A stretch of DNA of 37,278 nucleotides from Saccoglossus kowalevskii (Eukaryota; Hemichordata; Enteropneusta; Harrimaniidae). The notes under the pieces are model-generated. The model saw only the letters and a program-made list of their open reading frames with translations. It was not told the origin of the DNA and did not search any database. Location of the stretch: the NCBI RefSeq assembly GCF_000003605.2, contig NW_003148241.1:1-37278 (forward strand). Reading direction: 5' to 3'. The translations under genes and the position numbers were made by a program. Of this stretch, positions 1 to 37,278 are shown one piece after another (position 1 is the stretch's first letter; each line of letters opens with the position of its first letter).

Positions 1-12
1 CTTAAAGAGAGC

Positions 13-97
13 CATCCCCGGTGGGATTCGAACCCACAGCCCCCGAATAACTTTTTCAACTAGAATTCCGACTCGCTATCCGTTGCGCCACAGAGAC
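13..97 (-). tRNA. tRNA-Arg(UCU): tRNA-Arg(UCU), intron-containing, partly decayed
   Basis: This is the same 85-nt gene as the canonical copy at 2672, with changes that weaken it. Position 32 is A instead of C, the D-stem pair 10-25 is broken (GCGC against GCGA), and the acceptor stem relies on several G-U pairs. The downstream terminator is only TTT rather than TTTT. The A and B boxes remain recognisable. It may be a pseudogene. Confidence 0.65.
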
Positions 98-233
98 ACT
101 GCATAACGCCTGCTTCGTATGCAAGGTAATTTTTATTTTTTACATCACAACGTTTGACCAGATCACACTGTTCCTTTCGATCTTGACTCATAATTGAATA
201 CACAATATGTATTTTGAATAACAAAATTTATAT

Positions 234-239
234 TTTATT
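234..239 (-). terminator. Polyadenylation signal AATAAA of the unit 1 homeobox gene
   Basis: AATAAA on the minus strand lies 55 nt beyond the stop codon at 294-296. The same hexamer lies at the same offset (60 below the exon 3 lower end) in the other full copies, for example 2884-2889 and 5167-5172. It ends the homeobox transcript before the tRNA gene. Confidence 0.6.
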
Positions 240-293
240 ATAACGTATTATGTACACGAAATTAGAATGACTAACCACGAATAAATGCTTTTC

Positions 294-1246
294 TCAAACA
301 GAATATGAAGCTTCGCAAATGACTAATGGACACAAAGTACGATCTAAATCAGTAATTCCATTAAATGACAAATCTGATGACACGTCTTTACAAGGTGTAC
401 TATATATTTCTATTTCACTTTGATAGACGTCTGTCAGGATACCACTGGAATGTGTACTGCAATTTTGTATCTTCGTATCACTACAATGCCTTGGTGTACT
501 ACTGGATTGTGTAACACTAATATATTCACTGAGGGAAGGCGTTGCTGGTAGGACATCAAGTCGAGTGTCCACTGATTTTCCTCGACTTTGCACGGACGGA
601 AAACGCGTCGTCGATTCTTTCAACTTTTGTATTGGTGCTTGATGGTGCTTAGCATATAACACGGCATCTCTTTCCCGTTTTTGCCTCCGTTTTTGACTCC
701 GACGATTCTGAAACCACTTCTGAAAAGTGAATAAAATAGATTATTGTATAATATAATGAACAACAAGAAACTGTTCGCTTACATTATAACATACTTTGGT
801 GCATACATAATGCTCTCACTTACCATAATTGACTTTTCCGATAAGTTGGTAATTATGGCGATACGCTTGCGCATGTCGCGATTTAGATACTCTGTAGTAG
901 TTGTAAATATTACTTCTAATAAAACCGACTGTGTCTCGCTGTAGATATAGCGACTTGATTTCCTGCCAACATAACTACCTGTAAAAATAAAAAAAAAACA
1001 TATTTGTGTCTGTAGCAATCGTGATACAACATTACGTGACCTAAACCACTATAATCCATTTTGAAGTTAATTCGGTGAGACATAATTATTTAAAGTAGAG
1101 CACATTTACTTACCTTTGCTGTGCGATTTACCATCTACGTAACCGCAGACATTCTTCCAATCAAACCGACCAGCAATATCTAACACCGGTAATAAGTTCA
1201 ACATAACATTGGCTGTGAAATGGGTGTTGTCAATATGTAATGCCAT
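294..1246 (-). CDS. Divergent homeodomain protein, unit 1 (three exons, intact)
   Basis: Exons read on the minus strand are 1246-1114, 978-824 and 719-294, giving 237 codons plus TGA. Both introns are GT-AG: intron 1 is phase 1 (135 bp) and intron 2 is phase 0 (104 bp). The start at 1246 was chosen for its good context (A at -3, G at +4). The frame stays open upstream but shows no earlier ATG. Residues 50-110 form a homeodomain: R5, Y8, Q12, L16 and F20 in the arm and helix 1, then Y25, L26, R31, A35 and L40, and the recognition helix with WFQNRR (W48, F49, Q50, N51, R53). Intron 2 falls between homeodomain codons 46 and 47. The tail is Ser/Thr-rich with no domain I recognise. A nuclear DNA-binding regulator is inferred from the family. 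Variants of this copy are Q140, S164, T166 and Y202, a basic tail reading QKRERD where most copies have QERKRD, and a 5-bp longer intron 2. Confidence 0.85.
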
Positions 1247-2308
1247 AGTATTCTTTATACGATACACATGGGACGAGAAAGCGTGTAGCAATGATACACA
1301 TGTGGTATGTTTTGGTTGGTTTATAGTTTCGAATTCTTATACCAATTTTCGCATTTGTAAGGATATTCAAGAAAACTTTGTCAATGGATTGCCGCCCCCT
1401 TCTGTAAAATGCCGTCTGTTTACTTGCGCCATAAATGTGTTAACTCGCAGTGTTGTTATGCCAATTAACACTCCATATAACGTGAAAAGACACAGGAACT
1501 CGGATGTGTAATGCTGTTGATGATTGAACTTGCCGGTATTCACCGAGTGATGGCGCTTCGACAAAACAAAAAAAAAAACGTCTACTGGCTGCGGCGATTT
1601 TGTTGTGTTTATTAATGAGTATACCATTTCAAAATGTGTATGGAATTATAAATCTCATCCGACGCTCTTCTCTCGTTGGTGTTCTTTAATTATTGATACA
1701 TAGGTAAGATACTGCTGTTTAATTCGGACAGAACACTGACGTTAAATTGAACAAAACAATCCAATAGAGAACTGCTTTTCTTTCAAAAATGCCGGCTTTC
1801 TAATATCATGGCAAATGTGTTAACTTTTGGCAAATGTGTTAATAATTGGAATGCTAATTAATAATCCGCGGATCGTGAAAACTCACTAACTCTGTGATTG
1901 TTCCGGTTGATTATGTTTCAACTCACCAACATTTACCGAGTGACGGTGCTTCAACAACATGTTAAAGAGCATTCAACGTTATTCCATGTAGACGTTGGGG
2001 ATAAGCAAGGACATGTATGTTGATGGAATTAGGTAATTATTTTTATATTTCGGTTGATCTTACAAAGGCTCGTGTAGAACACGTATCAAACACCTAGTAT
2101 CGCTACAATCAGTTGGCTTTTTATACCATTAGTAGCCATTTTTGTATTTGGTTCATTACATCAAAATCCGTGTAGAATATTTTAATCTCAGTCGACGGTC
2201 TCGGTCTTTCTAATTATTAGCACCGAGGAGAGCTACAACTGTCCAATATGTTAAGACCATTGACGACAATTTGAACAAAACATGTCCATCGTGACTTAAA
2301 AGAAGAGC
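1247..2308. promoter_or_regulatory. Upstream spacer of the unit 1 homeobox gene
   Basis: I see no convincing gene here. Reading toward the gene, a TATA-like TATAAAC lies at 1325-1319, 73 nt upstream of the ATG; most other copies have TATAAAT there. An A-tract lies near 1568-1577. A 14-bp direct repeat (ggcaaatgtgttaa) occurs at 1810-1823 and 1829-1842, followed by a cluster of TAAT/ATTA homeodomain cores at 1841-1866. Imperfect hairpin arms CAACGTT/GACGTTG sit at 1974-1997. CTCGGT/ACCGAG inverted arms at 2200-2227 flank a TAATTA. Two stretches of about 27 bp (1538-1564 and 1931-1957) differ at four positions and look like an old internal duplication. Promoter function is inferred from position only. 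Confidence 0.45.
1319..1325 (-). promoter_or_regulatory. TATA-like element of unit 1 gene
   Basis: TATAAAC lies 73-79 nt upstream of the proposed ATG. In other copies the same place reads TATAAAT. A start site about 30 nt downstream would give a 5' UTR of about 45 nt. No transcript evidence is available, and AT-rich DNA produces such matches by chance. Confidence 0.35.
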
Positions 2309-2393
2309 CATCTCCGGTGGGATTCGAACACACAGCCTCCGAATAACTTTTTCAACTAGAAGTCCGACGCGCTATCCGTTGCGCCACGGAGAC
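2309..2393 (-). tRNA. tRNA-Arg(UCU): tRNA-Arg(UCU), intron-containing, T-stem mismatch
   Basis: Same fold as the copy at 2672, but the T stem reads GTGTG against CCCAC, which breaks one pair and alters the B box. Expression is doubtful. Confidence 0.7.
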
Positions 2394-2671
2394 ACAGCAT
2401 ACCGCCTGCTTCATATGCAAGATATTTTTATTTGTTACATCACAACACCAAACACCTTGTATCGCTACAACCAGTTGGCTTTTTATACCATTGGTAGCCA
2501 TTTTTTATATTGGTTCATTCCATCAAAATGCATGCAGAATATTTTAATCTCAGTCGACGGTCTCGGTCTTTCCTAATTATTAGTACCGAGGAGAGCTACA
2601 ACTGTCCAATATGTTAAGACTATTGACGACAATTTGAACAAAACATGTCCATCGTGACTTAAAAGAAGAGC
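2309..2671 (-). repeat. Short unit 1 (tRNA-only, 363 bp)
   Basis: A tRNA-Arg is followed directly by the distal part of the spacer. The sequence jumps from the tRNA 5' flank (...catcacaac) to the spacer position reading accaaacacc, skipping the homeobox gene and the proximal spacer. Its tRNA flank reads gcaagatatttttatttg, where full units read gcaaggtatttttatttt. This marks short units as one family. Confidence 0.9.
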
Positions 2672-2756
2672 CATCTCCGGTGGGATTCGAACCCACAGCC
2701 TCCGAATAACTGTTTCAACTAGAAGTCCGACGCGCTATCCGTTGCGCCACGGAGAC
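2672..2756 (-). tRNA. tRNA-Arg(UCU): tRNA-Arg(UCU), intron-containing, canonical copy
   Basis: This 85-nt gene decodes AGA. The acceptor stem GTCTCCG pairs with CGGAGAT and G is the discriminator. The D arm is GCGC/GCGC. The anticodon loop starts CT-TCT-A, and a 12-nt intron follows position 37, the usual eukaryotic site. The anticodon stem TCGGA/TTCGG uses two wobbles. The variable loop is AGGCT and the T arm is GTGGG/CCCAC around TTCGAAT. The A box TGGCGCAACGG and B box GGTTCGAATCC are well matched. A TTTT terminator begins 8 nt beyond the 3' end (2664-2661). It lies about 190 bp downstream of the homeobox stop, on the same strand. Confidence 0.95.
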
Positions 2757-2943
2757 ACTACATATCGCCTGCTTCGTGTGCAAGGTATTTTTATTTTTTA
2801 CATCACAACGTTTGACCAGATCACACTGCTCCTTTCGATCTTGACTCATAATTGAATACACAATATGTATTTTTTATTTATATTTTATTATAACGTATTA
2901 TGTACACGAAATTAAAATGACTAACCACGAATAAATGCTTTTC

Positions 2944-3891
2944 TCAAACAGAATATGAAGCTTCGCAAATGACTAATGGACACAGAGTACGATCTAAATC
3001 AGTAATTCCATTAAATGACAAATCTGATGACACGTCTTTACAAGGTGTACTACATATTTCTATTTCACTTTGACAGACGTCTGTCAGGATACCACTGGAA
3101 TGTGTACTGCAATTTTGTATCTTCGTATCACTACAATGCCTTGGTGTACTACTGGATTGTGGAACACCAATATATTCCCGGAGGGAAGGCGTTGCTGGTA
3201 GGACATCAAGTCGAGTGTCCACTGATTTTCCTCGACTTCGCACGGACGGAAAACGCGTCGTCGATTCTTTCAACTTTTGTATTGGTGCTTGATGGTGCTT
3301 AGCATATAACACGGCATCTCTTTTCCGTTCTTGCCTCCGTTTTTGACTCCGACGATTCTGAAACCACTTCTGAAAAGTGAATAAAATAGATTATTGTATA
3401 ATGAACAACAAGAAACTGTTCGCTTACATTATAACATACTTTGGTGCATACATAATGCTCTCACTTACCATAATTGACTTTTCCGATAATTTGGTAATTA
3501 TGGCGATACGCTTGCGCATGTCGCGATTTAGATACTCCGTAGTAGTTGTAAATATTACTTCTAATAAAACCGACTGTGTTTCGCTGTAGATATAGCGACT
3601 TGATTTCCTGCCAACATAACTACCTGTAAAAATAAAAAAAAAACATATTTGTGTCTGTAGCAATCGTGATACAACATTACGTGACCTAAACCACTATAAT
3701 CCATTTTGAAGTTAATTCGGTGAGACATAATTATTTAAAGTAGAGCACATTTACTTACCTTTGCTGTGCGATGTACCATCTACGTAACGGCAGACATTCT
3801 TCCAATCAAACCGACCAGCAATATCTAACACCGGTAATAAGTTCAACATAACATTGGCTGTTAAATGGGTGTTGTCAATATGTAATGCCAT
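2944..3891 (-). CDS. Divergent homeodomain protein, unit 2 (intact)
   Basis: Exons are 3891-3759, 3623-3469 and 3369-2944, 237 codons plus stop, with GT-AG introns of 135 and 99 bp. This copy carries exon 1 variants L10, R35 and T40, shared only with unit 4, so the two exon 1 segments have a common recent origin. In the homeodomain it has K at position 39 (N in most copies) and S54-Q55. In the tail it has R160 and C195. AATAAA lies at 2884-2889. All three exons are open, so it is a candidate functional gene; no further function can be assigned than homeodomain DNA binding. Confidence 0.84.
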
Positions 3892-4954: not shown

Positions 4955-5039
4955 CATCTCCGGTGGGATTCGAACCCACAGCCTCCGAATAACTGTTTCA
5001 ACTAGAAGTCCGACGCGCTATCCGTTGCGCCACGGAGAC
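4955..5039 (-). tRNA. tRNA-Arg(UCU): tRNA-Arg(UCU), intron-containing
   Basis: Identical to the canonical copy at 2672 in stems, loops, 12-nt intron, promoter boxes and TTTT terminator. Confidence 0.95.
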
Positions 5040-5226
5040 ACTGCATATCGCCTGCTTCGTATGCAAGGTATTTTTATTTTTTACATCACAACGTTTGACC
5101 AGATCACACTGTTCCTTTCGATCTTGACTCATAATTGAATACACAATATGTATTTTGTATTCATATTTTATTATAACGTATTATGTACACGAAATTAAAA
5201 TGACTAACCACGAATAAATGCTTTTC

Positions 5227-6175
5227 TCAAACAGAATATGAAGCTTCGCAAATGACTAATGGACACAGAGTACGATCTAAATCAGTAATTCCATTAAATG
5301 ACAAATCTGATGACACGTCTTTACAAGGTGTACTACATATTTCTATTTCACTTTGATAGACGTCTGTCAGGATACCACTGGAATGTGTACTGCAATTTTG
5401 TATCTTCGTATCACTACAATGCCTTGGTGTACTACTGGATTGTGGAACACCAATATATTCACTGAGGGAAGGCGTTGCTGGTAGGACATCAAGTCGAGTG
5501 TCCACTGATTTTCCTCGACTTCGCACGGACGGAAAACGCGTCGTCGATTCTTTCAACTTTTGTATTGGTGCTTGATGGTGCTTAGCATATAACACGGCAT
5601 CTCTTTTCCGTTCTTGCCTCCGTTTTTGACCCCGACGATTCTGAAACCACTTCTGAAAAGTGAATAAAATAGATTATTGTATAATGAACAACAAGAAACA
5701 GTTCGCTTACATTATAACATACTTTGGTGCATACATAATGCTCTCACTTACCATAATTGACTTTTCCGATAAGTTGGTAATTATGGCGATACGCTTGCGC
5801 ATGTCGCGATTTAGATACTCCGTAGTAGTTGTAAATATTACTTCTAATAAAACCGACTGTGTCTCGCTGTAGATATAGCGACTTGATTTCCTGCCAACAT
5901 AACTACCTGTAAAAATAAAAAAACCCACATATTTGTGTCTGTAGCAATCGTGATACAACATTACGTGACCTAAACCACTATAATCCATTTTGAAGTTAAT
6001 TCGGTGAGACATAATTATTTAAAGTAGAGCACATTTACTTACCTTTGCTGTGCGATTCACCATCTACGTAACCGCAGACATTCTTCCAATCAAACCGACC
6101 AGCAATATCTAACACCGGTAATAAGTTCAACATAACATTGGCTGTAAAATGGGTGTTGTCAATATGTAATGCCAT
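5227..6175 (-). CDS. Divergent homeodomain protein, unit 3 (intact)
   Basis: Exons are 6175-6043, 5906-5752 and 5652-5227, 237 codons plus stop, with intact GT-AG junctions. It differs from unit 1 at G54 in the homeodomain (S in units 1, 2, 7, 14 and 16) and E40 in exon 1. The tail is the standard form (R140, G164, P166). Intron 1 contains the variant aaaaccc before the acceptor, shared with unit 5, which points to common ancestry of those segments. AATAAA is at 5167-5172. All reading frames are open. Confidence 0.84.
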
Positions 6176-7236: not shown

Positions 7237-7321
7237 CATCTCCGGTGGGATTCGAACCCACAGCCTCCGAATAACTGTTTCAACTAGAAGTCCGACGCGC
7301 TATCCGTTGCGCCACGGAGAC
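7237..7321 (-). tRNA. tRNA-Arg(UCU): tRNA-Arg(UCU), intron-containing
   Basis: Canonical in all stems, anticodon TCT, 12-nt intron and TTTT terminator. It is the tRNA of a short unit. Confidence 0.95.
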
Positions 7322-7600: not shown

Positions 7601-7685
7601 CATCTCTGGTGGGATTCGAACCCACAGCCTCCGAATAACTTTTTCAACTAGAAGTCCGACGCGCTATCCGTTGCGCCACGGAGAC
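7601..7685 (-). tRNA. tRNA-Arg(UCU): tRNA-Arg(UCU), acceptor mismatch
   Basis: Same gene with CAGAGAT on the 3' acceptor side, giving one C-A mismatch at pair 6-67. The rest is normal. Confidence 0.8.
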
Positions 7686-7891: not shown

Positions 7892-8452
7892 CTGCCTCCG
7901 TTTTTGACACCGACGATTCTGAAACCACTTCTGAAAAGTGAATAAAATAGATTATTGTATAATGAACAACAAGAAACTGTTCGCTTACATTATAACATAC
8001 TTTGGTGCATACATAATGCTCTCACTTACCATAATTGACTTTTCCGATAAGTTGGTAATTATGGCGATACGCTTGCGCATGTCGCGATTTAGATACTCCG
8101 TAGTAGTTGTAAATATTACTTCTAATAAAACCGACTGTGTCTCGCTGTAGATATAGCGACTTGATTTCCTGCCAACATAACTACCTGTAAAAATAAAAAA
8201 AACACATATATGTGTCTGTAGCAATCGTGATACAACATTACGTGACCTAAACCACTATAATCCATTTTGAAGTTAATTCGGTGAGACATAATTATTTAAA
8301 GTAGAGCACATTTACTTACCTTTGCTGTGCGATGTACCATCTACGTAACGGCAGACATTCTTCCAATCAAACCGACCAGCAATATCTAACACCGGTAATA
8401 AGTTCAACATAACATTGGCTGTTAAATGGGTGTTGTCAATATGTAATGCCAT
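7865..8452 (-). pseudogene. Homeobox gene, unit 4, exon 3 truncated by deletion
   Basis: Exons 8452-8320 and 8184-8030 are complete, with the L10, R35 and T40 variants shared with unit 2. Exon 3 starts normally at 7930 but only about 39 nt remain before the deletion seam. The frame then runs through foreign spacer and stops at TAG 7867-7865, adding 8 unrelated residues. The predicted product is 117 residues and still contains nearly the whole homeodomain (WFQNRR present, C54), but lacks the Ser/Thr tail and its own AATAAA. It could be a dead copy or a short DNA-binding form; sequence alone does not decide. Confidence 0.8.
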
Positions 8453-9510: not shown

Positions 9511-9595
9511 CATCTCTGGTGGGATTCGAACCCATAGCCTCCGAATAACTTTTTCAACTAGAAGTCTGACGCGCTATCCGTTGCGCCATGGAGAC
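9511..9595 (-). pseudogene. Decayed tRNA-Arg(UCU)
   Basis: Four stem mismatches relative to the canonical copy: acceptor pairs 7-66 (A-C) and 6-67 (C-A), anticodon stem 29-41 (A-C), and T stem 49-65 (A-C). The anticodon and intron are still readable. Probably a tRNA pseudogene. Confidence 0.75.
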
Positions 9596-9873: not shown

Positions 9874-9958
9874 CATCTCCGGTGGGATTCGAACCCACAG
9901 ACTCCGAATAACTGTTTCAACTAGAAGTCCGACGCGCTATCCGTTGCGCCACGGAGAC
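9874..9958 (-). tRNA. tRNA-Arg(UCU): tRNA-Arg(UCU), intron-containing
   Basis: Canonical stems and promoter boxes. The only change is AGTCT instead of AGGCT in the variable loop, which does not affect pairing. Confidence 0.92.
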
Positions 9959-10145: not shown

Positions 10146-11094
10146 TCAAACAGAATATGAAGCTTCGCAAATGACTAATGGACACAGAGTACGATCTAAA
10201 TCAGTAATTCCATTAAATGACAAATCTGATGACACGTCTTTACAAGGTGTACTACATATTTCTATTTCACTTTGATAGACGTCTGTCAGGATACCACTGG
10301 AATGTGTACTGCAATTTTGTATCTTCGTATCACTACAATGCCTTGGTGTACTACTGGATTGTGGAACACCAATATATTCACTGAGGGAAGGTGTTGCTGG
10401 TAGGACATCAAGTCGAGTGTCCACTGATTTTCCTCGACTTCGCACGGACGGAAAACGCGTCGTCGATTCTTTCAACTTTTGTATTGGTGCTTGATGGTGC
10501 TTAGCATACAACACGGCATCTCTTTTCCGTTCTTGCCTCCGTTTTGGACCCCGACGATTCTGAAACCACTTCTGAAAAGTGAATAAAATAGATTATTGTA
10601 TAATGAACAACAATAAACTGTTCGCTTACATTATAACATACTTTGGTGCATACATAATGCTCTCACTTACCATAATTGACTTTTCCGATAAGTTGGTAAT
10701 TATGGCGATACGCTTGCGCATGTCGCGATTTAGATACTCCGTAGTAGTTGTAAATATTACTTCTAATAAAACCGACTGTGTCTCGCTGTAGATATAGCGA
10801 CTTGATTTCCTGCCAACATAACTACCTGTAAAAATAAAAAAACCCACATATTTGTGTCTGTAGCAATCGTGATACAACATTACGTGACCTAAACCACTAT
10901 AATCCATTTTGAAGTTAATTCGGTGAGACATAATTATTTAAAGTAGAGCACATTTACTTACCTTTGCTGTGCGATTTACCATCTACGTAACCGCAGACAT
11001 TCTTCCAATCAAACCGACCAGCAATATCTAACACCGGTAATAAGTTCAACATAACATTGGCTGTAAAATGGGTGTTGTCAATATGTAATGCCAT
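10146..11094 (-). CDS. Divergent homeodomain protein, unit 5 (intact, G54-P55 form)
   Basis: Exons are 11094-10962, 10825-10671 and 10571-10146, 237 codons plus stop, with all splice sites conserved. Exons 1 and 2 and the tail are the standard form. The recognition helix carries G54-P55 instead of S/G54-Q55, shared with units 6 and 12. A proline at homeodomain position 55 would be expected to disturb helix 3, so DNA binding may differ. Intron 1 shares the aaaaccc variant with unit 3. AATAAA lies at 10086-10091. Confidence 0.83.
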
Positions 11095-12154: not shown

Positions 12155-12239
12155 CATCTCCGGTGGGATTCGAACCCACAGCCTCCCAATAACTTTTTCA
12201 ACTAGAAGTCCGACGCGCTATCCGTTGCGCCATGGAGAC
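12155..12239 (-). tRNA. tRNA-Arg(UCU): tRNA-Arg(UCU), two stem mismatches
   Basis: A7 against C66 in the acceptor stem, and a G-G at 29-41 in the anticodon stem because the 3' strand reads TTGGG. Possibly non-functional. Confidence 0.6.
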
Positions 12240-12517: not shown

Positions 12518-12602
12518 CATCTTCGGTGGGATTCGAAACCACAGCCTCCGAATAACTGTTTCAACTAGAAGTCCGACGCGCTATCCGTTGCGCCACGGAG
12601 AC
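12518..12602 (-). pseudogene. Probably decayed tRNA-Arg(UCU)
   Basis: Acceptor C5-A68 mismatch, T-stem T53-C61 mismatch that also alters the B box, and only TTT as terminator. The anticodon arm and intron are intact. Confidence 0.65.
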
Positions 12603-12789: not shown

Positions 12790-13737
12790 TCAAACAGAAT
12801 ATGAAGCTTCGCAAATGACTAATGGACACAGAGTACGATCTAAATCAGTAATTCCATTAAATGACAAATCAGATGACACGTCTTTACAAGGTGTACTACA
12901 TATTTCTATTTCATTTTGATAGTCGTCTGTCAGGATACCACTGGAATGTGTACTGCAATTTTGTATCTTCGTATCACTACAATGCCTTGGTGCACTACTG
13001 GATTGTGGAACACCAATATATTCACTGAGGGAAGGCGTTGCTGGTAGGACATCAAGTCGAGTGTCCACTGATTTTCCTCGACTTCGCACGGACGGAAAAC
13101 GCGTCGTCGATTCTTTCAACTTTTGTATTGGTGCTTGATGGTGCTTAGCATACAACACGGCATCTCTTTTCCGTTCTTGCCTCCGTTTTGGACCCCGACG
13201 ATTCTGAAACCACTTCTGAAAAGTGAATAAAATAGATTATTGTATAATGAACAACAAGAAACTGTTCGCTTACATTATAACATACTTTGGTGCATACATA
13301 ATGCTCTCACTTACCATAATTGACTTTTCCGATAAGTTGGTAATTATGGCGATACGCTTGCGCATGTCGCGATTTAGATACTCCGTAGTAGTTGTAAATA
13401 TTACTTCTAATAAAACCGACTGTGTCTCGCTGTAGATATAGCGACTTGATTTCCTGCCAACGTAACTACCTGTAAAAATAAAAAAAACACATATTTGTGT
13501 CTGTAGCAATCGTGATACAACATTACGTGACCTAAACCACTATAATCCATTTTGAAGTTAATTCGGTGAGACATAATTATTTAAAGTAGAGCACATTTAC
13601 TTACCTTTGCTGTGCGATTTACCATCTACGTAACCGCAGACATTCTTCCAATCAAACCGACCAGCAATATCTAACACCGGTAATAAGTTCAACATAACAT
13701 TGGCTGTAAAATGGGTGTTGTCAATATGTAATGCCAT
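12790..13737 (-). CDS. Divergent homeodomain protein, unit 6 (intact, G54-P55 form)
   Basis: Exons are 13737-13605, 13469-13315 and 13215-12790, 237 codons plus stop, with good splice sites. It has G54-P55 in the recognition helix. The tail variants A171, D194 and N197 include two (A171, N197) shared with unit 12, as are 3' UTR changes (gacaagatc, accaagaataaa) and the tRNA flank. Unit 6 and unit 12 are therefore sister copies. AATAAA is at 12730-12735. Confidence 0.83.
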
Positions 13738-15529: not shown

Positions 15530-15614
15530 CATCTCCGGTGGGATTCGAACCCACAGCCTCCGAATAACTGTTTCAACTAGAAGTCCGACGCGCTATCCGT
15601 TGCGCCACGGAGAC
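15530..15614 (-). tRNA. tRNA-Arg(UCU): tRNA-Arg(UCU), intron-containing
   Basis: Canonical in all stems, boxes and intron, with a TTTT terminator downstream. Confidence 0.95.
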
Positions 15615-15894: not shown

Positions 15895-15979
15895 CATCTC
15901 CGGTGGGATTCGAACCCACAGCCTCCGAATAACTGTTTCAACTAGAAGTCCGACGCGCTATCCGTTGCGCCACGGAGAC
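15895..15979 (-). tRNA. tRNA-Arg(UCU): tRNA-Arg(UCU), intron-containing
   Basis: Canonical copy. It lies just downstream of the rearranged unit 7 gene. Confidence 0.95.
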
Positions 15980-16006
15980 ACTGCATATCGTCCGCTTCGT
16001 ATGCAA

Positions 16007-16110
16007 GTAGTTGTAAATATTACTTCTAATAAAACCGACTGTGTTTCGCTGTAGATATAGCGACTTGATTTCCTGTCAACATAACTACCTGTAAAAATAA
16101 AAAAAACACT
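16007..16110 (-). pseudogene. Stray fragment of homeobox exon 2 and intron 1
   Basis: An out-of-place second piece of exon 2 (16088-16007) and the intron 1 acceptor tract (to about 16110) is inserted between the tRNA flank and exon 3 of unit 7. It replaces the 3' UTR, the AATAAA and the last part of exon 3. The left joint (gcaag|tagttg) shares AG with both parents; the right joint has about three extra T. It carries the change ctgtcaac, not seen in the proper exon 2 copies. Confidence 0.88.
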
Positions 16111-16184
16111 TTTATTTCACTTTGATAGACGTCGGTCAGGATACCACTGGAATGTGTACTGCAATTTTGTATCTTCGTATCACT

Positions 16185-16943
16185 TCAATGCCTTGGTGTA
16201 CTACTGGATTGTGGAACACCAATATATTCACTGAGGGAAGGCGTTGCTGGTAGGACATCAAGTCGAGTGTCCACTGATTTTCCTCGACTTCGCACGGACG
16301 GAAAACGCGTCGTCGATTCGTTCAACATTTGTATTGGTGCTTGATGGTGCTTAGCATATAACACGGCATCTCTTTTCCGTTCTTGCCTCCGTTTTTGACT
16401 CCGACGATTCTGAAACCACTTCTGAAAAGTGAATAAAATAGATTATTGTATAATGAACAACAAGAAACTGTTCGCTTACATTATAACATACTTTGGTGCA
16501 TACATAATGCTCTCACTTACCATAATTGACTTTTCCGATAAGTTGGTAATTATGGCGATACGCTTGCGCATGTCGCGATTTAGATACTCCGTAGTAGTTG
16601 TAAATATTACTTCTAATAAAACCGACTGTGTCTCGCTGTAGATATAGCGACTTGATTTCCTGCCAACATAACTACCTGTAAAAATTAAAAAAAAACATAT
16701 TTGTGTCTGTAGCAATCGTGATACAACATTACGTGACCTAAACCACTATAATCCATTTTGAAGTTAATTCGGTGAGACATAATTATTTAAAGTAGAGCAC
16801 ATTTACTTACCTTTGCTGTGCGATTTACCATCTACGTAACCGCAGACATTCTTCCAATCAAACCGACCAGCAATATCTAACACCGGTAATAAGTTCAACA
16901 TAACATTGGCTGTAAAATGGGTGTTGTCAATATGTAATGCCAT
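16185..16943 (-). pseudogene. Homeobox gene, unit 7, nonsense mutation and lost 3' end
   Basis: Exons 16943-16811 and 16675-16521 are intact, and exon 3 starts normally at 16421 (S54-Q55, M128, N130). A codon change TGT to TGA at 16187-16185 (position of residue 175) stops the frame, leaving 174 residues with a complete homeodomain. Further down, the C-terminal coding part is replaced by the stray exon 2 fragment, so the normal stop and polyadenylation signal are gone. Probably a pseudogene, though the DNA-binding part is undamaged. Confidence 0.82.
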
Positions 16944-18004: not shown

Positions 18005-18089
18005 CATCTCCGGTGGTATTCGAACCCACAGCCTCCGAATAACTGTTTCAACTAGAAGTCCGACGCGCTATCCGTTGCGCCACGGAGAC
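18005..18089 (-). tRNA. tRNA-Arg(UCU): tRNA-Arg(UCU), one T-stem mismatch
   Basis: The 3' side of the T stem reads ACCAC instead of CCCAC, giving a G-A mismatch at 53-61 and a B-box change. Otherwise canonical. Confidence 0.78.
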
Positions 18090-20285: not shown

Positions 20286-20370
20286 CATCTCCGGTGGGAT
20301 TCGAACCCACAGCCTCCGAATAACTGTTTCAACTAGAAGTCCGACGCGCTATCCGTTGCACCACGGAGAC
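20286..20370 (-). tRNA. tRNA-Arg(UCU): tRNA-Arg(UCU), intron-containing
   Basis: One change in the D stem (GTGC against GCGC) leaves a G-U pair, so the fold is kept. It alters one A-box base. The rest is canonical. Confidence 0.88.
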
Positions 20371-20557: not shown

Positions 20558-21504
20558 TCAAACAGAATATGAAGCTTCGCAAATGACTAATGGACACAGA
20601 GTACGATCTAAATCAGTAATTCCATTAAATGACAAATCTGATGACACGTCTTTACAAGATGTACTACATATTTCTATTTCACTTTGATAGACGTCTGTCA
20701 GGATACCACTGGAATGTGTACTGCAATTTTGTATCTTCGTATCACTACAATGCCTTGGTGTACTACTGGATTGTGGAACACCAATATATTCACTGAGGGA
20801 AGGCGTTGCTGGTAGGACATCAAGTCGAGTGTCCACTGATTTTCCTCGACTTCGCACGGACGGAAAACGCGTCGTCGATTCTTTCAACTTTTGTATTGGT
20901 GCTTGATGGTGCTTAGCATATAACACGGCATCTCTTTTCCGTTCTTGCCTCCGTTTTTGACCCCGACGATTCTGAAACCACTTCTGAAAAGAGAATAAAA
21001 TAGATTATTGTATAATGAACAACAAGAAACAGTTCGCTTACATTATAACATACTTTGGTGCATACATAATGCTCTGACTTACCATAATTGACTTTTCCGA
21101 TAAGTTGGTAATTATGGCGATACGCTTGCGCATGTCGCGATTTAGATACTCCGTAGTAGTTGTAAATATTACTTCTAATAAAACCGACTGTGTCTCGCTG
21201 TAGATATAGCGACTTGATTTCCTGCCAACATAACTACCTGTAAAAATAAAAAAACACATATTTGTGTCTGTAGCAATCGTGATACAACATTACGTGACCT
21301 AAACCACTATAATCCATTTTGAAGTTAATTCGGTGAGACATAATTATTTAAAGTAGAGCACATTTACTTACCTTTGCTGTGCGATTTACCATCTACGTAA
21401 CCGCAGACATTCTTCCAATCAAACCGACCAGCAATATCTAACACCGGTAATATGTTCAACATAACATTGGCTGTAAAATGGGAGTTGTCAATATGTAATG
21501 CCAT
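20558..21504 (-). CDS. Divergent homeodomain protein, unit 9 (intact)
   Basis: Exons are 21504-21372, 21237-21083 and 20983-20558, 237 codons plus stop. The intron 2 donor reads GTAAGTCAG rather than GTAAGTGAG, still a good donor. Private changes are S8 and I18 in exon 1 and S205 in the tail. The homeodomain has N39 and G54-Q55. AATAAA is at 20498-20503. All frames are open. Confidence 0.84.
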
Positions 21505-23293: not shown

Positions 23294-23378
23294 CATCTCC
23301 GGTGGGATTCGAACCCACAGCCTCCGAATAACTGTTTCAACTAGAAGTCCGACGCGCTATCCGTTGCGCCACGGAGAC
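23294..23378 (-). tRNA. tRNA-Arg(UCU): tRNA-Arg(UCU), intron-containing
   Basis: Canonical in stems, promoter boxes, intron and terminator. Confidence 0.95.
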
Positions 23379-23565: not shown

Positions 23566-24513
23566 TCAAACAGAATATGAAGCTTCGCAAATGACTAATG
23601 GACACAGAGTACGATCTAAATCAGTAATTCCATTAAATGACAAATCTGATGACACGTCTTTACAAGGTGTACTACATGTTTCTATTTCACTTTGATAGAC
23701 GTCTGTCAGGATACCACTGGAATGTGTACTGCAATTTTGTATCTTCGTATCACTACAATGCCTTGGTGTACTACTGGATTGTGGAACACCAATATATTCA
23801 CTGAGGGAAAGGCGTTGCTGGTAGGACATCAAGTCGAGTGTCCACTGATTTTCCTCGACTTCGCACGGACGGAAAACGCGTCGTCGATTCTTTCAACTTT
23901 TGTATTGGTGCTTGATGGTGCTTAGCATATAACACGGCATCTCTTTTCCGTTCTTGCCTCCGTTTTTGACCCCGACGATTCTGAAACCACTTCTGAAAAG
24001 TGAATAAAATAGATTATTGTATAATGAACAACAAGAAACAGTTCGCTTACATTATAACATACTTTGGTGCATACATAATGCTCTCACTTACCATAATTGA
24101 CTTTTCCGATAAGTTGGTAATTATGGCGATACGCTTGCGCATGTCGCGATTTAGATACTCCGTAGTAGTTGTAAATATTACTTCTAATAAAACCGACTGT
24201 GTCTCGCTGTAGATATAGCGACTTGATTTCCTGCCAACATAACTACCTGTAAAAATAAAAAAACACATATTTGTGTCTGTAGCAATCGTGATACAACATT
24301 ACGTGACCTAAACCACTATAATCCATTTTGAAGTTAATTCGGTGAGACATAATTATTTAAAGTAGAGCACATTTACTTACCTTTGCTGTGCGATTTACCA
24401 TCTACGTAACCGCAGACATTCTTCCAATCAAACCGACCAGCAATATCTAACACCGGTAATAAGTTCAACATAACATTGGCTGTAAAATGGGTGTTGTCAA
24501 TATGTAATGCCAT
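23566..24513 (-). pseudogene. Homeobox gene, unit 10, frameshift in exon 3
   Basis: Exons 24513-24381 and 24246-24092 are intact, with N39. Exon 3 spans 23992-23566 and has one extra A in gggaaagg (near 23808; seven bases read gggaagg in other copies). The frame shifts after residue 157 and meets TGA at 23800-23798, giving about 160 residues with a full homeodomain (G54-Q55) but no tail. Beyond the shift the old frame stays open to the normal stop, so the mutation is recent or a sequencing error. T201 is a private change in the now unread tail. AATAAA is at 23506-23511. Confidence 0.82.
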
Positions 24514-25571: not shown

Positions 25572-25656
25572 CATCTCCGGTGGGATTCGAACCCACAGCC
25601 TCCGAATAACTGTTTCAACTAGAAGTCCGACGCGCTATCCGTTGCGCCACGGAGAC
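25572..25656 (-). tRNA. tRNA-Arg(UCU): tRNA-Arg(UCU), intron-containing
   Basis: Canonical in all parts. Confidence 0.95.
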
Positions 25657-25935: not shown

Positions 25936-26020
25936 CATCTCCGGTGGGATTCGAACCCACAGCCTCCGAATAACTGTTTCAACTAGAAGTCCGACGCGCT
26001 ATCCGTTGCGCCACGGAGAC
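25936..26020 (-). tRNA. tRNA-Arg(UCU): tRNA-Arg(UCU), intron-containing
   Basis: Canonical in all parts. Confidence 0.95.
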
Positions 26021-26207: not shown

Positions 26208-27153
26208 TCAAACAGAATATGAAGCTTCGCAAATGACTAATGGACACAGAGTACGATCTAAATCAGTAATTCCATTAAATGACAAATCTGATGACACGTC
26301 TTTACAAGGTGTACTACATATTTCTATTTCACTTTGATAGACGTCTGTCAGGATACCACTGGAATGTGTACTGCAATTTTGTATCTTCGTATCACTACAA
26401 TGCCTTGGTGTACTACTGGATTGTGGAACACCAATATATTCACTGAGGGAAGGCGTTGCTGGTAGGACATCAAGTCGAGTGTCCACTGATTTTCCTCGAC
26501 TTCGCACGGACGGAAAACGCGTCGTCGATTCTTTCAACTTTTGTATTGTTGCTTGGTGGTGCTTAGCATATAACACGGCATCTCTTTTCCGTTCTTGCCT
26601 CCGTTTTTGACCCCGACGATTCTGAAACCACTTCTGAAAGTGAATAAATAGATTATTGTATAATGAACAACAAGAAACTGTTCGCTTACATTATAACATA
26701 CTTTGGTGCATACATAATGCTCTCACTTACCATAATTGACTTTTCCGATAAGTTGGTAATTATGGTGATACGCTTGCGCATGTCGCGATTTAGATACTCC
26801 GTAGTAGTTGTAAATATTACTTCTAATAAAACCGACTGTGTCTCGCTGTAGATATAGCGACTTGATTTCCTGCCAACATAACTACCTGTAAAAATAAAAA
26901 AAAAACATATTTGTGTCTGTAGCAATCGTGATACAACATTACGTGACCTAAACCACTATAATCCATTTTGAAGTTAATTCGGTGAGACATAATTATTTAA
27001 AGTAGAGCACATTTACTTACCTTTGCTGTGCGATTTACCATCTACGTAACCGCAGACATTCTTCCAATCAAACCGACCAGCAATATCTAACACCGGTAAT
27101 AAGTTCAACATAACATTGGCTGTAAAATGGGTGTTGTCAATATGTAATGCCAT
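26208..27153 (-). CDS. Divergent homeodomain protein, unit 11 (intact, T35)
   Basis: Exons are 27153-27021, 26885-26731 and 26633-26208, 237 codons plus stop. Intron 2 is two bases shorter than in sister copies but has normal ends. Homeodomain position 35, normally Ala and buried in helix 2, is Thr here, which may weaken folding. It has G54-Q55, N39, and T125 in the tail. Spacer variants link this unit to unit 5. AATAAA is at 26148-26153. Confidence 0.83.
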
Positions 27154-28212: not shown

Positions 28213-28297
28213 CATCTTCGGTGGGATTCGAACCCACAGCCTCCGAATAACTGTTTCAACTAGAAGTCCGACGCGCTATCCGTTGCGCCACGGAGAC
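28213..28297 (-). tRNA. tRNA-Arg(UCU): tRNA-Arg(UCU), acceptor mismatch
   Basis: Acceptor C5-A68 mismatch (3' side CGAAGAT) and TTT instead of TTTT at the terminator, both shared with the unit 6 copy at 12518. The T arm is intact here. Confidence 0.72.
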
Positions 28298-28484: not shown

Positions 28485-29431
28485 TCAAACAGAATATGAA
28501 GCTTCGCAAATGACTAATGGACACAGAGTACGATCTAAATCAGTAATTCCATTAAATGACAAATCTGATGACACGTCTTTACAAGGTGTACCACATATTT
28601 CTATTTCATTTTGATAGACGTCTGTCAGGATACCACTGGAATGTGTACTGCAATTTTGTATCTTCGTATCACTACAATGCCTTGGTGCACTACTGGATTG
28701 TGGAACACCAATATATTCACTGAGGGAAGGCGTTGCTGGTAGGACATCAAGTCGAGTGTCCACTGATTTTCCTCGACTTCGCACGGACGGAAAACGCGTC
28801 GTCGATTCTTTCAACTTTTGTATTGGTGCTTGATGGTGCTTAGCATACAACACGGCATCTCTTTTCCGTTCTTGCCTCCGTTTTGGACCCCGACGATTCT
28901 GAAACCACTTCTGAAAAGTGAATAAAATAGATTATTGTATAATGAACAACAAGAAACTGTTCGCTTACATTATAACATACTTTGGTGCATACATAATGCT
29001 CTCACTTACCATAATTGACTTTTCCGATAAGTTGGTAATTATGGCGATACGCTTGCGCATGTCGCGATTTAGATACTCCGTAGTAGTTGTAAATATTACT
29101 TCTAATAAAACCGACTGTGTCTCGCTGTAGATATAGCGACTTGATTTCCTGCCAATATAACTACCTGTAAAAATAAAAAAACACATATTTGTGTCTGTAG
29201 CAATCGTGATACAACATTACGTGACCTAAACCACTGTAATCCATTTTGAAGTTAATTCGGTGAGACATAATTATTTAAAGTAGAGCACATTTACTTACCT
29301 TTGCTGTGCGATTTACCATCTACGTAACCGCAGACATTCTTCCAATCAAACCGACCAGCAATATCTAACACCGGTAATAAGTTCAACATAGCATTGGCTG
29401 TAAAATGGGTGTTGTCAATATGTAATGCCAT
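28485..29431 (-). CDS. Divergent homeodomain protein, unit 12 (intact, G54-P55 form)
   Basis: Exons are 29431-29299, 29164-29010 and 28910-28485, 237 codons plus stop. It is the sister of unit 6 (G54-P55, A171, N197). Private changes are A14 in exon 1, I48 just before the homeodomain, and G203 in the tail. All splice junctions are conserved. AATAAA is at 28425-28430. Confidence 0.83.
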
Positions 29432-30491: not shown

Positions 30492-30576
30492 CATCTCCGG
30501 TGGGATTCGAACCCACAGCCTCCGAATAACTTTTTCAACTAGAAGTCCGACGCGCTATCCGTTGCGCCACGGAGAC
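30492..30576 (-). tRNA. tRNA-Arg(UCU): tRNA-Arg(UCU), intron-containing
   Basis: Canonical stems and boxes. The only change is one base in the intron, as in several other copies. Confidence 0.93.
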
Positions 30577-30763
30577 ACTGCATATCGCCTGCTTCGTATG
30601 CAAGGTATTTTTATTTTTTACATCACAACGTTTGACCAGATCACACTGCTCCTTTCGATCTTGACTCATAATTGAATACACAATATGTGTTTTTTATTTA
30701 TATTTTATTATAACGTATTATGTACACGAAATTAAAATGACTAACCACGAATAAATGCTTTTC

Positions 30764-31712
30764 TCAAACAGAATATGAAGCTTCGCAAATGACTAATGGA
30801 CACAGAGTACGATCTAAATCAGTAATTCCATTAAATGACAAATCTGATGACACGTCTTTACAAGGTGTACTACATATTTCTATTTCACTTTGATAGACGT
30901 CTGTCAGGATACCACTGGAAAATGTACTGCAATTTTGTTTCTTCGTATCACTACAATGCCTTGGTGTACTACTGGATTGTGGAACACCAATATATTCACT
31001 GAGGGAAGGCGTTGCTGGTAGGACATCAAGTCGAGTGTCCACTGATTTTCCTCGACTTCGCACGGACGGAAAACGCGTCGTCGATTCTTTCAACATTTGT
31101 ATTGGTGCTTGATGGTGCTTAGCATATAACACGGCATCTCTTTTCCGTTCTTGCCTCCGTTTTTGACCCCGACGATTCTGAAACCACTTCTGAAAAGTGA
31201 ATAAAATAGATTATTGTATAATGAACAACAAGAAACTGTTCGCTTACATTATAACATACTTTGGTGCATACATAATGCTCTCACTTACCATAATTGACTT
31301 TTCCGATAATTTGGTAATTATGGCGATACGCTTGCGCATGTCGCGATTTAGATACTCCGTAGTAGTTGTAAATATTACTTCTAATAAAACCGACTGTGTT
31401 TCGCTGTAGATATAGCGACTTGATTTCCTGCCAACATAACTACCTGTAAAAATAAAAAAAAACACATATTTGTGTCTGTAGCAATCGTGATACAACATTA
31501 CGTGACCTAAACCACTATAATCCATTTTGAAGTTAATTCGGTGAGACATAATTATTTAAAGTAGAGCACATTTACTTACCTTTGCTGTGCGATTTACCAT
31601 CTACGTAACCGCAGACATTCTTCCAATCAAACCGACCAGCAATATCTAACACCCGTAATAAGTTCAACATAACATTCGCTGTATAATGGGTGTTGTCAAT
31701 ATGTAATGCCAT
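30764..31712 (-). CDS. Divergent homeodomain protein, unit 13 (intact)
   Basis: Exons are 31712-31580, 31443-31289 and 31189-30764, 237 codons plus stop. It is the sister of unit 8 (R20, K39, M128). Private changes are Y10 in exon 1, and K180 and F186 in the tail. G54-Q55 in the recognition helix. AATAAA is at 30704-30709. All frames and splice sites are intact. Confidence 0.83.
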
Positions 31713-32768: not shown

Positions 32769-32853
32769 CATCTCCGGTGGGATTCGAACCCACAGCCTCC
32801 GAATAACTGTTTCAACTAGAAGTCCGACGCGCTATCCGTTGCGCCACGAAGAC
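32769..32853 (-). tRNA. tRNA-Arg(UCU): tRNA-Arg(UCU), intron-containing
   Basis: One acceptor change gives a U-G pair at 5-68; otherwise canonical. Its 5' flank (gcaagatatttttatttg) is of the short-unit type, yet a full homeobox unit follows, so the unit 13/14 boundary is a recombinant. Confidence 0.9.
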
Positions 32854-33040
32854 ACAGCATACCGCCTGCTTCATATGCAAGATATTTTTATTTGTTACAT
32901 CACAACGTTTGACCAGATCACACTGTTCCTTTCGATCTTGACTCATAATTGAATACACAATATGTATTTTTTATTTATATTTTATTATAACGTATTATGT
33001 ACACGATATTAAAATGACTAACCACGAATAAATGCTTTTC

Positions 33041-33948
33041 TCAAACAGAATATGAAGCTTCGCAAATGACTAATGGACACAGAGTACGATCTAAATCAGT
33101 AATTCCATTAAATGACAAATCTGATGACACGTCTTTACAAGGTGTACTACATATTTCTATTTCACTTTGATAGACGTCTCTCAGGATACCACTGGAATGT
33201 GTATTGCAATTTTGTATCTTCGTATCACTACAATGCCTTGGTGTACTACTGGATTGTGGAACACCAAGTCGAGTATCCACTGATTTTCCTCGACTTCGCA
33301 CGGACGGAAAACGCGTCGTCGATTCTTTCAACTTTGGTATTGGTGCTTGATGGTGCTTAGCATATAACACGGCATCTCTTTTCCGTTTTTGCCTCCGTTT
33401 TTGACTCCGACGATTCTGAAACCACTTCTGAAAAGTGAATAAAATAGATTATTGTATAATGAACAACAAGAAACTGTTCGCTTACATTATAACATACTTT
33501 GGTGCATACATAATGCTCTCACTTACCATAATTGACTTTTCCGATAACTTGGTGATTATGGCGATACCCTTGCGCATGTCGCGATTTAGATACTCTGTTG
33601 TAGTTGTAAATATTACTTCTAATAAAACCGACTGTGTCTCGCTGTAGATATAGCGACTTGATTTCCTGCCAACATAACTATCTGTAAAAATAAAAAAAAA
33701 CATATTTGTGTCTGTAGTAATTGTGATACAACATTACGTGACCTAAACCACTATAATCCATTTTGAAGTTAATTCGGTGAGACATAATTATTTAAAGTAG
33801 AGCACATTTACTTACCTTTGCTGTGCGATTTACCATCTACGTAACCGCAGACATTCTTCCAATCAAACCGATCAGCAATATCTAACACCGGTAATAAGTT
33901 CGACATAACATTGGCTGTAAAATGGGTGTTGTCAATATGTAATGCAAT
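33041..33948 (-). pseudogene. Homeobox gene, unit 14, start codon lost and 13-codon deletion
   Basis: Exons match 33948-33816, 33681-33527 and 33427-33041. The ATG of all other copies is ATT here (33948-33946), and the next in-frame ATG is at 33906, which would remove 14 residues. Otherwise the frame is open: S16, D26, D45, G33 and K39 of the homeodomain numbering, S54-Q55, P127, N184, R192. Exon 3 lacks 39 bp (residues 151-163), shared with unit 16. It could still be translated from the internal ATG; the homeodomain is complete. AATAAA is near 32981. Confidence 0.75.
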
Positions 33949-35006: not shown

Positions 35007-35091
35007 CATCTCTGGTGGGATTCGAACCCACAGCCTCCGAATAACTTGTTCAACTAGAAGTCCGACGCGCTATCCGTTGCGCCACGGAGAC
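35007..35091 (-). tRNA. tRNA-Arg(UCU): tRNA-Arg(UCU), acceptor mismatch
   Basis: C6-A67 acceptor mismatch like the copy at 7601, plus one intron change. The anticodon, T arm and TTTT terminator are intact. Confidence 0.78.
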
Positions 35092-35245
35092 ACTGCATAC
35101 CGCCTGATTCGTATGCAAGATATTTTTATTTGTTACATCACAACACCAAACACCTTGTATCGCTACAACCAGTTGGCTTTTTATACCATTGGTAGCCAAT
35201 ACCTGTAAAAATAAAAAAAAAAAAACATATTTGTGTCTGTGGCAT
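35092..35245 (-). pseudogene. Unit 15 relic: short-unit spacer joined to an intron 1 scrap
   Basis: Short-unit spacer runs to ggtagcca and then jumps near 35199 to the exon 2/intron 1 boundary tract. About 45 bp of intron 1 remain (35200-35245, with an A-tract of 13). A second jump near 35244 lands in the promoter region (tcctataccaatt). Exons 1 and 3, nearly all of exon 2, and the TATA-like element are gone, so no homeobox product is possible. Confidence 0.85.
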
Positions 35246-36214
35246 CCTATACCAATTGTCGCATTTGTAAGGATATTCAAGAAAACTGTGTCAATGGATT
35301 GCCGCCTCCTTCCGTAAAATGCCGCCTGTTTAATTGCGCTACAAATGTGTTAACTCGCAGTGTTGTTATGCCAATTAACACTCCATATAACGTGAAAAGA
35401 CACTGGAACTCGGATGTGTGAATCTGTTAATGATTGAACTTGCCGGCATTCACCGAGTGATGGCGCTTCGACAAAACAAAAAAACGTATATTGGCTGCGG
35501 CGATTTTGTTGTGTTTATTAATGAGTATACCATTTCAAAATGTGTATGGAATTATAAATCTCATCCGACGCTCTTCTCTATTTGGTGTTCTTTAATTATT
35601 GACACTTAGTAAAATACTGCTGTGTAATTCGGACAGAACAGTGACGTTAAATTGAACAAAACAATCCAACAGAGAACTGCTTTTCTTTCAAAAATGCCGG
35701 CTTTCTAATATCATGGCAAATGTGTTAACTTTTGGCAAATGTGTTAACAATTGGAATGCTAATTAATAATCCGCGGGTCGTGAAAACTCACTAACTCTGT
35801 GATTGTTCTGGTTGATTATGTTTCAACTCATCAACATTGGCCGAGTGACGGCGCTTCAATAACATGTTAAAGAGCATTCAACGTCATTCCATGTAGACGT
35901 TGGGGATAGGCAAGGACATGTATGTTGATGGAATTAGGTAATAATTTTATATTTCGGTTGATCTTACAAAGGCTCCTGTAGAACATATATCAAACACCTA
36001 GTATCGCTACAACCAGTTGGCTTTTTTATACCATTAGTAGCCATTTTTGTATTTGGTTCATTACATCAAAATGCGTGCAGAATATTTTAATCTCAGTCGA
36101 CGGTCTCGGTCTTTCCTAATTATTAGCACCGAGGAGAGCTACAACTGTCTAATATGTTAAGACTATTGAAGACGATGTGAACAAAACAAGTCCATCGTGA
36201 CTAAAAAGAAGAGC
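35246..36214. other. Orphan spacer of relic unit 15
   Basis: This is ordinary upstream spacer without a gene to serve. The direct-repeat pair, TAAT cluster and CAACGTC hairpin are still present. Shared variants with the unit 14 spacer (ataggcaagg, gctcctgtag, acggcgcttcaa) show these two are close relatives. No gene was recognised. Confidence 0.6.
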
Positions 36215-36299
36215 CATCTCCGGTGGGATTCGAACCCACAGCCTCCGAATAACTTTTTCAACTAGAAGTCCGATGCGCTATCCGTTGCGCCTCGGAGAC
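36215..36299 (-). tRNA. tRNA-Arg(UCU): tRNA-Arg(UCU), position 8 changed
   Basis: The nearly invariant U8 is A here and position 26 is A instead of G. Stems pair normally. The terminator is TTTTT. U8 normally pairs with A14 in the core, so function may be reduced. Confidence 0.75.
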
Positions 36300-36486
36300 A
36301 CTGCTTATCGCCTGCTTCGTATGCAAGGTATTTTTATTTTTTACATCACAACGTTTGACCAAATCACACTGTTCCTTTCGATCTTGACTCATAATTGAAT
36401 ACACAATATGTATTTTTTATTTATATTTTATTATAACGTATTATGTACACGAAATTAAAATGACTAACCACGAATAAATGCTTTTC

Positions 36487-37278
36487 TCAAACAGAATATG
36501 AAGCTTCGCAAATGACTAATGGACACAGAGTACGATCTAAATCAGTAATTCCATTAAATGACAAATCTGATGACACGTCTTTACAAGGTGTACTACATAT
36601 TTCTATTTCACTTTGATAGACGTCTGTCAGGATACCACTGGAATGTGTACTGCAATTTTGTATCTTCGTATCACTACAATGCCTTGGTGTACTACTGGAT
36701 TGTGGAACACCAAGTCGAGTGTCCACTGATTTTCCTCGACTTCGCACGGACGGAAAACGCGTCGTCGATTCTTTCATCTTTTGTATTGGTGCTTGATGGT
36801 GCTTAGCATATAATACGGCATCTCTTTTCCGTTTTTGTCTCCGTTTTTGACTCCGACGATTCTGAAACCACTTCTGAAAAGTGAATAAAATAGATTATTG
36901 TATAATGAACAACAAGAAACTGTTCGCTTACATTATAACATACTTTGGTGCATACATAATGCTCTCACTTACCATAATTGACTTTTCCGATAAGTTGGTG
37001 ATTATGGCGATACCCTTGCGCATGTCGCGATTTAGATACTCTGTAGTAGTTGTAAATATTACTTCTAATAAAACCGACTGTGTCTCGCTGTAGATATAGC
37101 GACTTGATTTCCTGCCAACATAACTACCTGTAAAAATAAAAAAACAAACATATTTGTGTCTGTAGCATTCGTGATACAAGATTACGTGACCTAAACCACT
37201 ATAATCCATTTTGAAGTTAATTCGGAGAGACATAATTATTTAAAGTAGAGCACATTTACTTACCTTTGTTGTGCGATT
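36487..37278 (-). CDS. Divergent homeodomain protein, unit 16 (partial, runs off window)
   Basis: Exon 3 is 36873-36487, exon 2 is 37127-36973, and exon 1 is cut by the window end (visible 37278-37264). The visible frame is open and splice sites are normal. Exon 3 lacks the same 39 bp (residues 151-163) as unit 14, so the full protein would be about 224 residues. The homeodomain has G33 (R elsewhere, except unit 14), N39 and S54-Q55. M replaces L at residue 129. AATAAA is at 36427-36432. Whether the start codon is present cannot be seen. Confidence 0.8.

Follow-up and report, generated by a model that had tools for sequence, protein, structure and literature searches.

The 37,278-bp window analysed here, the whole of contig NW_003148241.1 (C3844) of the Saccoglossus kowalevskii assembly, is a tandem array over its entire length, without any N, of units that join a three-exon homeobox gene to tRNA-Arg(UCU) genes. 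The reading that we favour, with moderate confidence and from the sequence, is that the array is a macrosatellite of a divergent homeodomain gene with a passenger tRNA, homogenised between units and with its reading frames apparently kept, so that its many copies could provide a high dosage of one protein.

A homeobox–tRNA macrosatellite

A single unit used as a blastn query covered 99.93% of the window, with matches on one strand only. A first-pass annotation of the window had described 16 homeobox units in 37 kb, and we found 16 homeobox-bearing places, all in one orientation (Table 1). Its assignment of a three-exon gene to every unit held for 14 of these places (12 full length, two with a truncated exon 3) and failed for the other two, an exon-2 fragment and a copy that runs off the contig. 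It had also counted ten fully open copies, the number that we obtained among the 12 full-length ones; one of the remaining two carries a 1-nt frameshift, and the other has ATA for a start codon together with a 39-nt deletion.

Searches of the genome assembly (572,110,611 bases in 4,830 contigs) extended the array far beyond the window. Six contigs, C3844, C3970, C1193, C2584, C3211 and C4681, with 154,833 bases in total, consist wholly of array, the unit covering at least 99.9% of each in a single orientation by blastn. They hold 60 three-exon homeobox copies, 43 of them fully open with both GT–AG introns, and 96 tRNA matches, of which 94 are full length, in agreement with the earlier proposal that homeobox and tRNA-Arg genes were co-amplified as a macrosatellite. 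Three-exon copies are spaced 1.9–3.5 kb apart on these contigs, mostly by ~2.28 or ~2.64 kb, giving the large array of head-to-tail units longer than 1 kb that defines a macrosatellite.

A search of the genome with exon 2 returned 69 matches. Seven array contigs hold 67 of them, 63 over the full length and four over part of it, the least significant covering 16 residues at E 0.4; the two matches off the array had E values of 0.5 and 8 at 38–40% identity, and this exon-2 search revealed no further paralogue. The seventh array contig, C1554 (576,650 bases), ends within an array copy and otherwise runs into other DNA. In the segment C1554:572000–576650 the homology to the array begins at position 3932, inside intron 1, so that the copy at this edge has no exon 1, and the 3,931 bases preceding the edge gave no match to the unit. 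Apparent exons of another protein gene were seen in this flank, as was a short tandem repeat, judged by eye, near positions 3400–3700 of the segment. All array contigs probably come from one locus, and, with assembly breaks falling within the array, the true number of copies probably exceeds our count.

Anatomy of the repeat unit

Read on the minus strand, the unit consists of ~1 kb of 5′ flank, the three-exon gene, a polyadenylation (poly(A)) signal and the tRNA gene. The homeobox gene has exons of 133, 155 and 426 nt, introns of ~135 and ~100 nt with GT–AG borders, and a product of 237 amino acids. Motif matches mark putative promoter and poly(A) elements: TATAAA lies 50–110 nt upstream of the start codon in all 60 copies, a GGGGGCGG box stands near it in 49 of the 60, and AATAAA follows the stop codon at exactly 54 nt in 57 of the 57 copies (out of 60) whose stop was located by script. 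A 19-bp direct repeat of ~2.2 copies was also observed in the 5′ flank (1809–1849 of the window), with similar places in other units.

The tRNA gene lies 188 nt 3′ of the stop codon in 47 of 56 measured copies, and nearly all of the ~60 homeobox copies of the array have a tRNA gene after them. In the window, Rfam (RF00005) detected 22 tRNA-Arg(UCU) copies at 31.2–54.5 bits and ARAGORN 21, all on the minus strand and 3′ of the homeobox gene. The pairing of the two genes on the same strand, as first annotated, is thus real, but it is not one-to-one, each three-exon gene of the window being followed by one or two tRNA genes. A 363-bp tRNA module is often doubled, and its single or doubled state accounts for the two common spacings; at one place on C3970, four tRNA genes stand in a row.

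Table 1. Homeobox and tRNA features of the window, in order of position (tRNA genes as detected by Rfam)
Feature	Position	Strand	Remarks
tRNA-Arg(UCU)	13..97	-	6 changes from array consensus
Homeobox copy	294..1246	-	open; exons 1114-1246, 824-978, 294-719
Doubled tRNA module (example)	2087..2809	-	period 363 bp, 94% matches
tRNA-Arg(UCU)	2309..2393	-	
tRNA-Arg(UCU)	2672..2756	-	consensus sequence
Homeobox copy	2944..3891	-	open; exons 3759-3891, 3469-3623, 2944-3369
tRNA-Arg(UCU)	4955..5039	-	consensus sequence
Homeobox copy	5227..6175	-	open; exons 6043-6175, 5752-5906, 5227-5652
tRNA-Arg(UCU)	7237..7321	-	consensus sequence
tRNA-Arg(UCU)	7601..7685	-	
Homeobox copy	7893..8452	-	exon 3 ends after 38 nt, fused to partial tRNA module
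tRNA-Arg(UCU)	9511..9595	-	5 changes; 31.2 bits
tRNA-Arg(UCU)	9874..9958	-	
Homeobox copy	10146..11094	-	open
tRNA-Arg(UCU)	12155..12239	-	
tRNA-Arg(UCU)	12518..12602	-	B box changed; missed by ARAGORN
Homeobox copy	12790..13737	-	open
tRNA-Arg(UCU)	15530..15614	-	consensus sequence
tRNA-Arg(UCU)	15895..15979	-	consensus sequence
Exon-2 fragment	16006..16088	-	83 nt
Homeobox copy	16110..16943	-	exon 3 ends after 312 nt
tRNA-Arg(UCU)	18005..18089	-	
Homeobox copy	18277..19226	-	open
tRNA-Arg(UCU)	20286..20370	-	
Homeobox copy	20558..21504	-	open
tRNA-Arg(UCU)	23294..23378	-	consensus sequence
Homeobox copy	23566..24513	-	1-nt frameshift in exon 3
tRNA-Arg(UCU)	25572..25656	-	consensus sequence
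tRNA-Arg(UCU)	25936..26020	-	consensus sequence
Homeobox copy	26208..27153	-	open
tRNA-Arg(UCU)	28213..28297	-	
Homeobox copy	28485..29431	-	open
tRNA-Arg(UCU)	30492..30576	-	
Homeobox copy	30764..31712	-	open
tRNA-Arg(UCU)	32769..32853	-	
Homeobox copy	33041..33948	-	ATA for start codon; 39-nt deletion in exon 3
tRNA-Arg(UCU)	35007..35091	-	
tRNA-Arg(UCU)	36215..36299	-	
Homeobox copy	36487..37127	-	exons 2 and 3; exon 1 past contig end

The homeodomain and its class

The encoded protein matched the Pfam Homeodomain family (PF00046) at E 4e-11 and 43 bits, against a gathering cut-off of 22.9, and homeodomains in PDB down to E 4e-7. The WFQNRR recognition helix is intact. Alignments place one extra residue in loop 1; extra homeodomain residues have evolved on several occasions and have no diagnostic value, according to the sections of PMC4901127 consulted. 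The 237 residues contain a single homeodomain stretch, where a DUX protein would have two.

Among 32 homeodomains compared, the highest identity to the array sequence was 40.7%, shared by HHEX, GSX2 and a Hox gene of the same genome, and no PRD-type sequence in the comparison exceeded 36%. A tree of 33 homeodomains placed the array sequence with the ANTP class (98/99), on a very long branch, and a tree of 29 gave the same placement (96/99) without rejecting a PRD one (p-AU 0.414); both trees use a largely hand-entered set of reference homeodomains and a long-branched array row. The second intron falls between homeodomain positions 46 and 47, exon 2 ending just before KWFQNRR, at what we take to be a PRD-typical place. 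A search of the spliced protein against a collection of 5.8 billion proteins, which may hold few animal proteins, gave 126 candidates and none at E ≤ 10, a weak sign of absence. The lineage-specific amplification that the first-pass annotation proposed, and its suggested germline, early-embryo or dosage role, are conjectural. Within the genome, a homeodomain search yielded 95 matches among the 150 scored of 209 candidates, and these presumably include genes resembling Hox, Gbx, Msx, Lbx and Barx, as befits a bilaterian animal. Because the homeodomain core is kept and the gene has a split-homeodomain structure, the gene would have been coding for a long time before it was amplified.

Probable homogenisation of the units and possible selection on the reading frame

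The 12 full units of the window are 96.0–99.2% alike (mean 97.9%), their similarity declining slightly with the distance between them (Spearman −0.32, P 0.009; pairs not independent), and an identical odd junction occurs at 14729 and 22493. From the near-identity, the mixed unit lengths, the truncations and this shared junction we infer that unequal exchange and gene conversion spread the units and homogenised them.

Coding variants were tested against the mutation spectrum of the array's own non-coding DNA, the tests treating variants as independent though copies share history. Indel calls refer to a single reference unit, and assembly errors may add singletons; coverage of the 60-copy alignment averaged 58 of 60 copies and went down to 3 at some columns. 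Stop variants made up 2 of 130 coding variants in this alignment, where ~7 were expected (P 0.025). Indels numbered 10 in 714 coding positions versus 98 in 1,272 non-coding positions (P 1e-10). With simple sequence left out, the figures were 8 in 506 coding positions and 42 in 715 flank positions (P 1e-4). We read this as reading frames that may have been kept to some degree while the residues recently were not.

Several results weigh against selection on the present copies. Replacement changes are not depleted, with 98 non-synonymous and 30 synonymous changes in the 60 copies (P 0.67) and 47 and 20 in 26 open copies (P 0.24), and 17 of the 60 copies on the six contigs are broken. Outside simple sequence, coding and intron indels do not differ significantly (8/506 versus 5/141, P 0.17), nor does the share of indels found in more than one copy, which is 1/10 in exons versus 8/17 in introns (P 0.09) and 20/81 in flanks (P 0.44). 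Introns are, moreover, as homogeneous as exons, so the low substitution density of the gene body may reflect conversion and not selection. On the neutral substitution pattern that the first-pass annotation had named, together with missing transcripts, as a refuting sign, the coding variation is mixed: non-synonymous changes are no rarer than expected, whereas indels and stops in the exons fall below expectation. A pattern of kept frames and unconstrained residues is what a few selected source copies spread by conversion would give.

Two earlier data sets were set aside. A first 60-unit alignment was dropped and replaced by the 60-copy alignment above, as truncated units had been misaligned and exon 3 inflated; it had given 253 non-synonymous and 81 synonymous changes and 10 stops, likewise with no synonymous excess and with a stop deficit (P 0.020). 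A first set of 28 copies, 26 of them open, was biased to high-scoring copies and was superseded by the count of 43 in 60.

The most probable rival, though we consider it unlikely, is a neutral, selfish or decaying macrosatellite, in which copies of a formerly working homeobox gene were passively amplified and are dispensable. Such an array would show what we see in the missing synonymous excess, in the broken copies and in a tRNA about as variable as the flanks, with two changed anticodons. It would hardly be expected to show too few stop codons, a shortage of coding indels relative to the flanks that persists with simple sequence left out, or a TATAAA and an AATAAA kept in every copy in which they could be checked. 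On the favoured reading of a homogenised array with frames kept, a compact and complete homeodomain gene travels with one or two RNA polymerase III (Pol III) tRNA-Arg(UCU) genes on the same strand. Frames seemingly kept above expectation since the amplification would then let many redundant copies supply a single transcription factor in large amounts, by analogy with the role proposed for the Obox, LEUTX and Dux arrays.

The tRNA gene: passenger or partner

The tRNA is 85 nt long by Rfam against a 71-position model, and the surplus bases lie directly after the anticodon, where they would fit a tRNA intron. The 94 full-length copies comprise 92 with a UCU and two with a UUU anticodon; an A box is present in 93, a B box in 83 and TTTT within 25 nt downstream in 84, and 34 are identical to the consensus. 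Both UUU (Lys) anticodons, at C2584:5590 and C3970:35796, sit on an Arg tRNA body with the same three further changes, and the first acceptor-stem pair of the consensus, read from the sequence, is G–U. There are 22 variants in 85 tRNA sites, compared with 251 in 850 in the 5′ flank and 39 in 187 in the 3′ flank, a density like that of the flanks. When the genome was searched with the tRNA, the first look produced 96 candidates, as many as the array holds, and all 40 scored ones lie inside it; no near-identical copies were seen outside the array in this search, which did not cover diverged tRNA-Arg(UCU) genes. An earlier set of 54 tRNA copies was superseded by the 94. A link between the tRNA and the protein through arginine codon use is not favoured, as AGA and AGG together account for ~4 of the 18 Arg codons that an open copy of the 26-copy set carries.

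Other tandem homeobox repeats occur in the same genome. Contig C2714 (10.2 kb, of which 10.0 kb was examined) carries repeats of 3.8–4.0 kb, ~98% alike, each unit containing a pair of PRD-like homeodomain exons in opposite orientation, and its repeat sequence recurs in the first 527 bases of C4084. Contig C837 (10.7 kb, 10.0 kb examined) has two 5.4-kb repeats, ~99% alike, with a homeobox. ARAGORN reported no tRNA in the examined parts of either, so homeobox amplification does not appear to need one.

The tRNA was most likely carried along within the unit, and a co-amplified passenger is likelier than a functional tRNA. Because the order of the genes is constant and the Pol III signals are mostly intact, it may nonetheless serve as a boundary. 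More broadly, the tRNA could be a working part of the array, through TFIIIC/Pol III insulation or termination between copies, or as a supply of tRNA-Arg(UCU) with the homeobox gene as passenger or co-regulated partner. We hold this to be improbable, if compatible with the favoured macrosatellite reading. The number of full-length copies, their largely preserved boxes and terminators, the fixed place behind the stop codon and the equality of genome and array counts all speak for it, as does the proposal, in the portion of PMC4041453 consulted, that the human tRNA macrosatellite at 1q23.3 is a boundary element. Its flank-like variability, the copies with a changed anticodon or B box, and the two homeobox repeats without a tRNA in the parts fetched speak against it.

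Two further proposals are less probable still. One is a co-selected unit of transcription factor and tRNA, an insulated, high-dosage orphan homeodomain factor (of the egg or early embryo, for example) with the tRNA as Pol III boundary and terminator between copies and, perhaps, chief supplier of tRNA-Arg(UCU) to the organism. The other, which is also compatible with the favoured reading, is that the tRNA gene caused the amplification, as a replication-fork barrier or a recombination hotspot. The separate duplication of the 363-bp module and the four consecutive tRNAs on C3970 would fit such a role, which is at odds with the tandem homeobox repeats lacking a tRNA in the parts fetched and with truncation and junction points that do not all lie at the tRNA. 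Multiplication of one or a few units by the assembler is very unlikely, because, although the six contigs end inside the array and leave its true length and order unfixed, the units differ by ~1–4% and in length, junctions and structure, there is no N, and C1554 leaves the array.

Comparison with known arrays

Tandem arrays of homeobox genes have been described, as have macrosatellites of tRNA genes, and in the open-licence PMC literature we found no paper describing a unit with both homeobox and tRNA genes. Linked histone–5S rRNA arrays would be a comparable case of a Pol III gene and a protein gene transcribed by RNA polymerase II in one tandem unit; they carry housekeeping genes, whereas this array carries a transcription factor. 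DUX4 in the human D4Z4 repeat is likewise a homeobox open reading frame in a macrosatellite unit. In the partial accounts consulted, the D4Z4 unit is 3.3 kb long and DUX4 is a double-homeobox retrogene; our unit differs in its one homeodomain, three exons and tRNA gene.

The ETCHbox genes, Obox and LEUTX among them, are Crx-derived genes of eutherian mammals. The consulted parts of the sources put the number of mouse Obox loci at 66 or about 67 (PMC8208926, PMC4904359) and report, in rabbit, 27 LEUTX copies of which 45% are pseudogenised (PMC8208926). They resemble this array in being extensive tandem runs of rapidly evolving homeobox genes that include many pseudogenes. Obox and LEUTX are mammalian PRD-class genes, whereas the best trees place our gene with ANTP without rejecting PRD. 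The array also differs in units ~98% alike, in its 17 broken copies out of 60 and in a tRNA inside the unit; the word tRNA is absent from the main text of PMC8208926.

The human 1q23.3 repeat shares with our array the presence of tRNA genes in a macrosatellite unit. It has 9–43 units per allele, 98% alike, each unit being 7.3 kb long and containing five tRNA genes, beside which no transcription unit was detected, according to the sections of PMC4041453 consulted; the word homeobox is absent from its main text. Oysters have novel lophotrochozoan homeobox genes, lineage-restricted and likewise divergent, whose expression peaks early or late in development, and the consulted sections of PMC5322547 mention neither a macrosatellite nor tRNA linkage.

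That this genome carries two or more further tandem homeobox repeats suggests a wider tendency. The tandem homeobox arrays known to us (Dux, Obox and LEUTX) are all mammalian and act around embryonic genome activation. A ~60-copy array of a homeobox gene without close kin, joined to a Pol III gene, would test the repeated origin of such arrays for dosage, and would also test the role of a tRNA gene as an inbuilt boundary between the genes of a macrosatellite.

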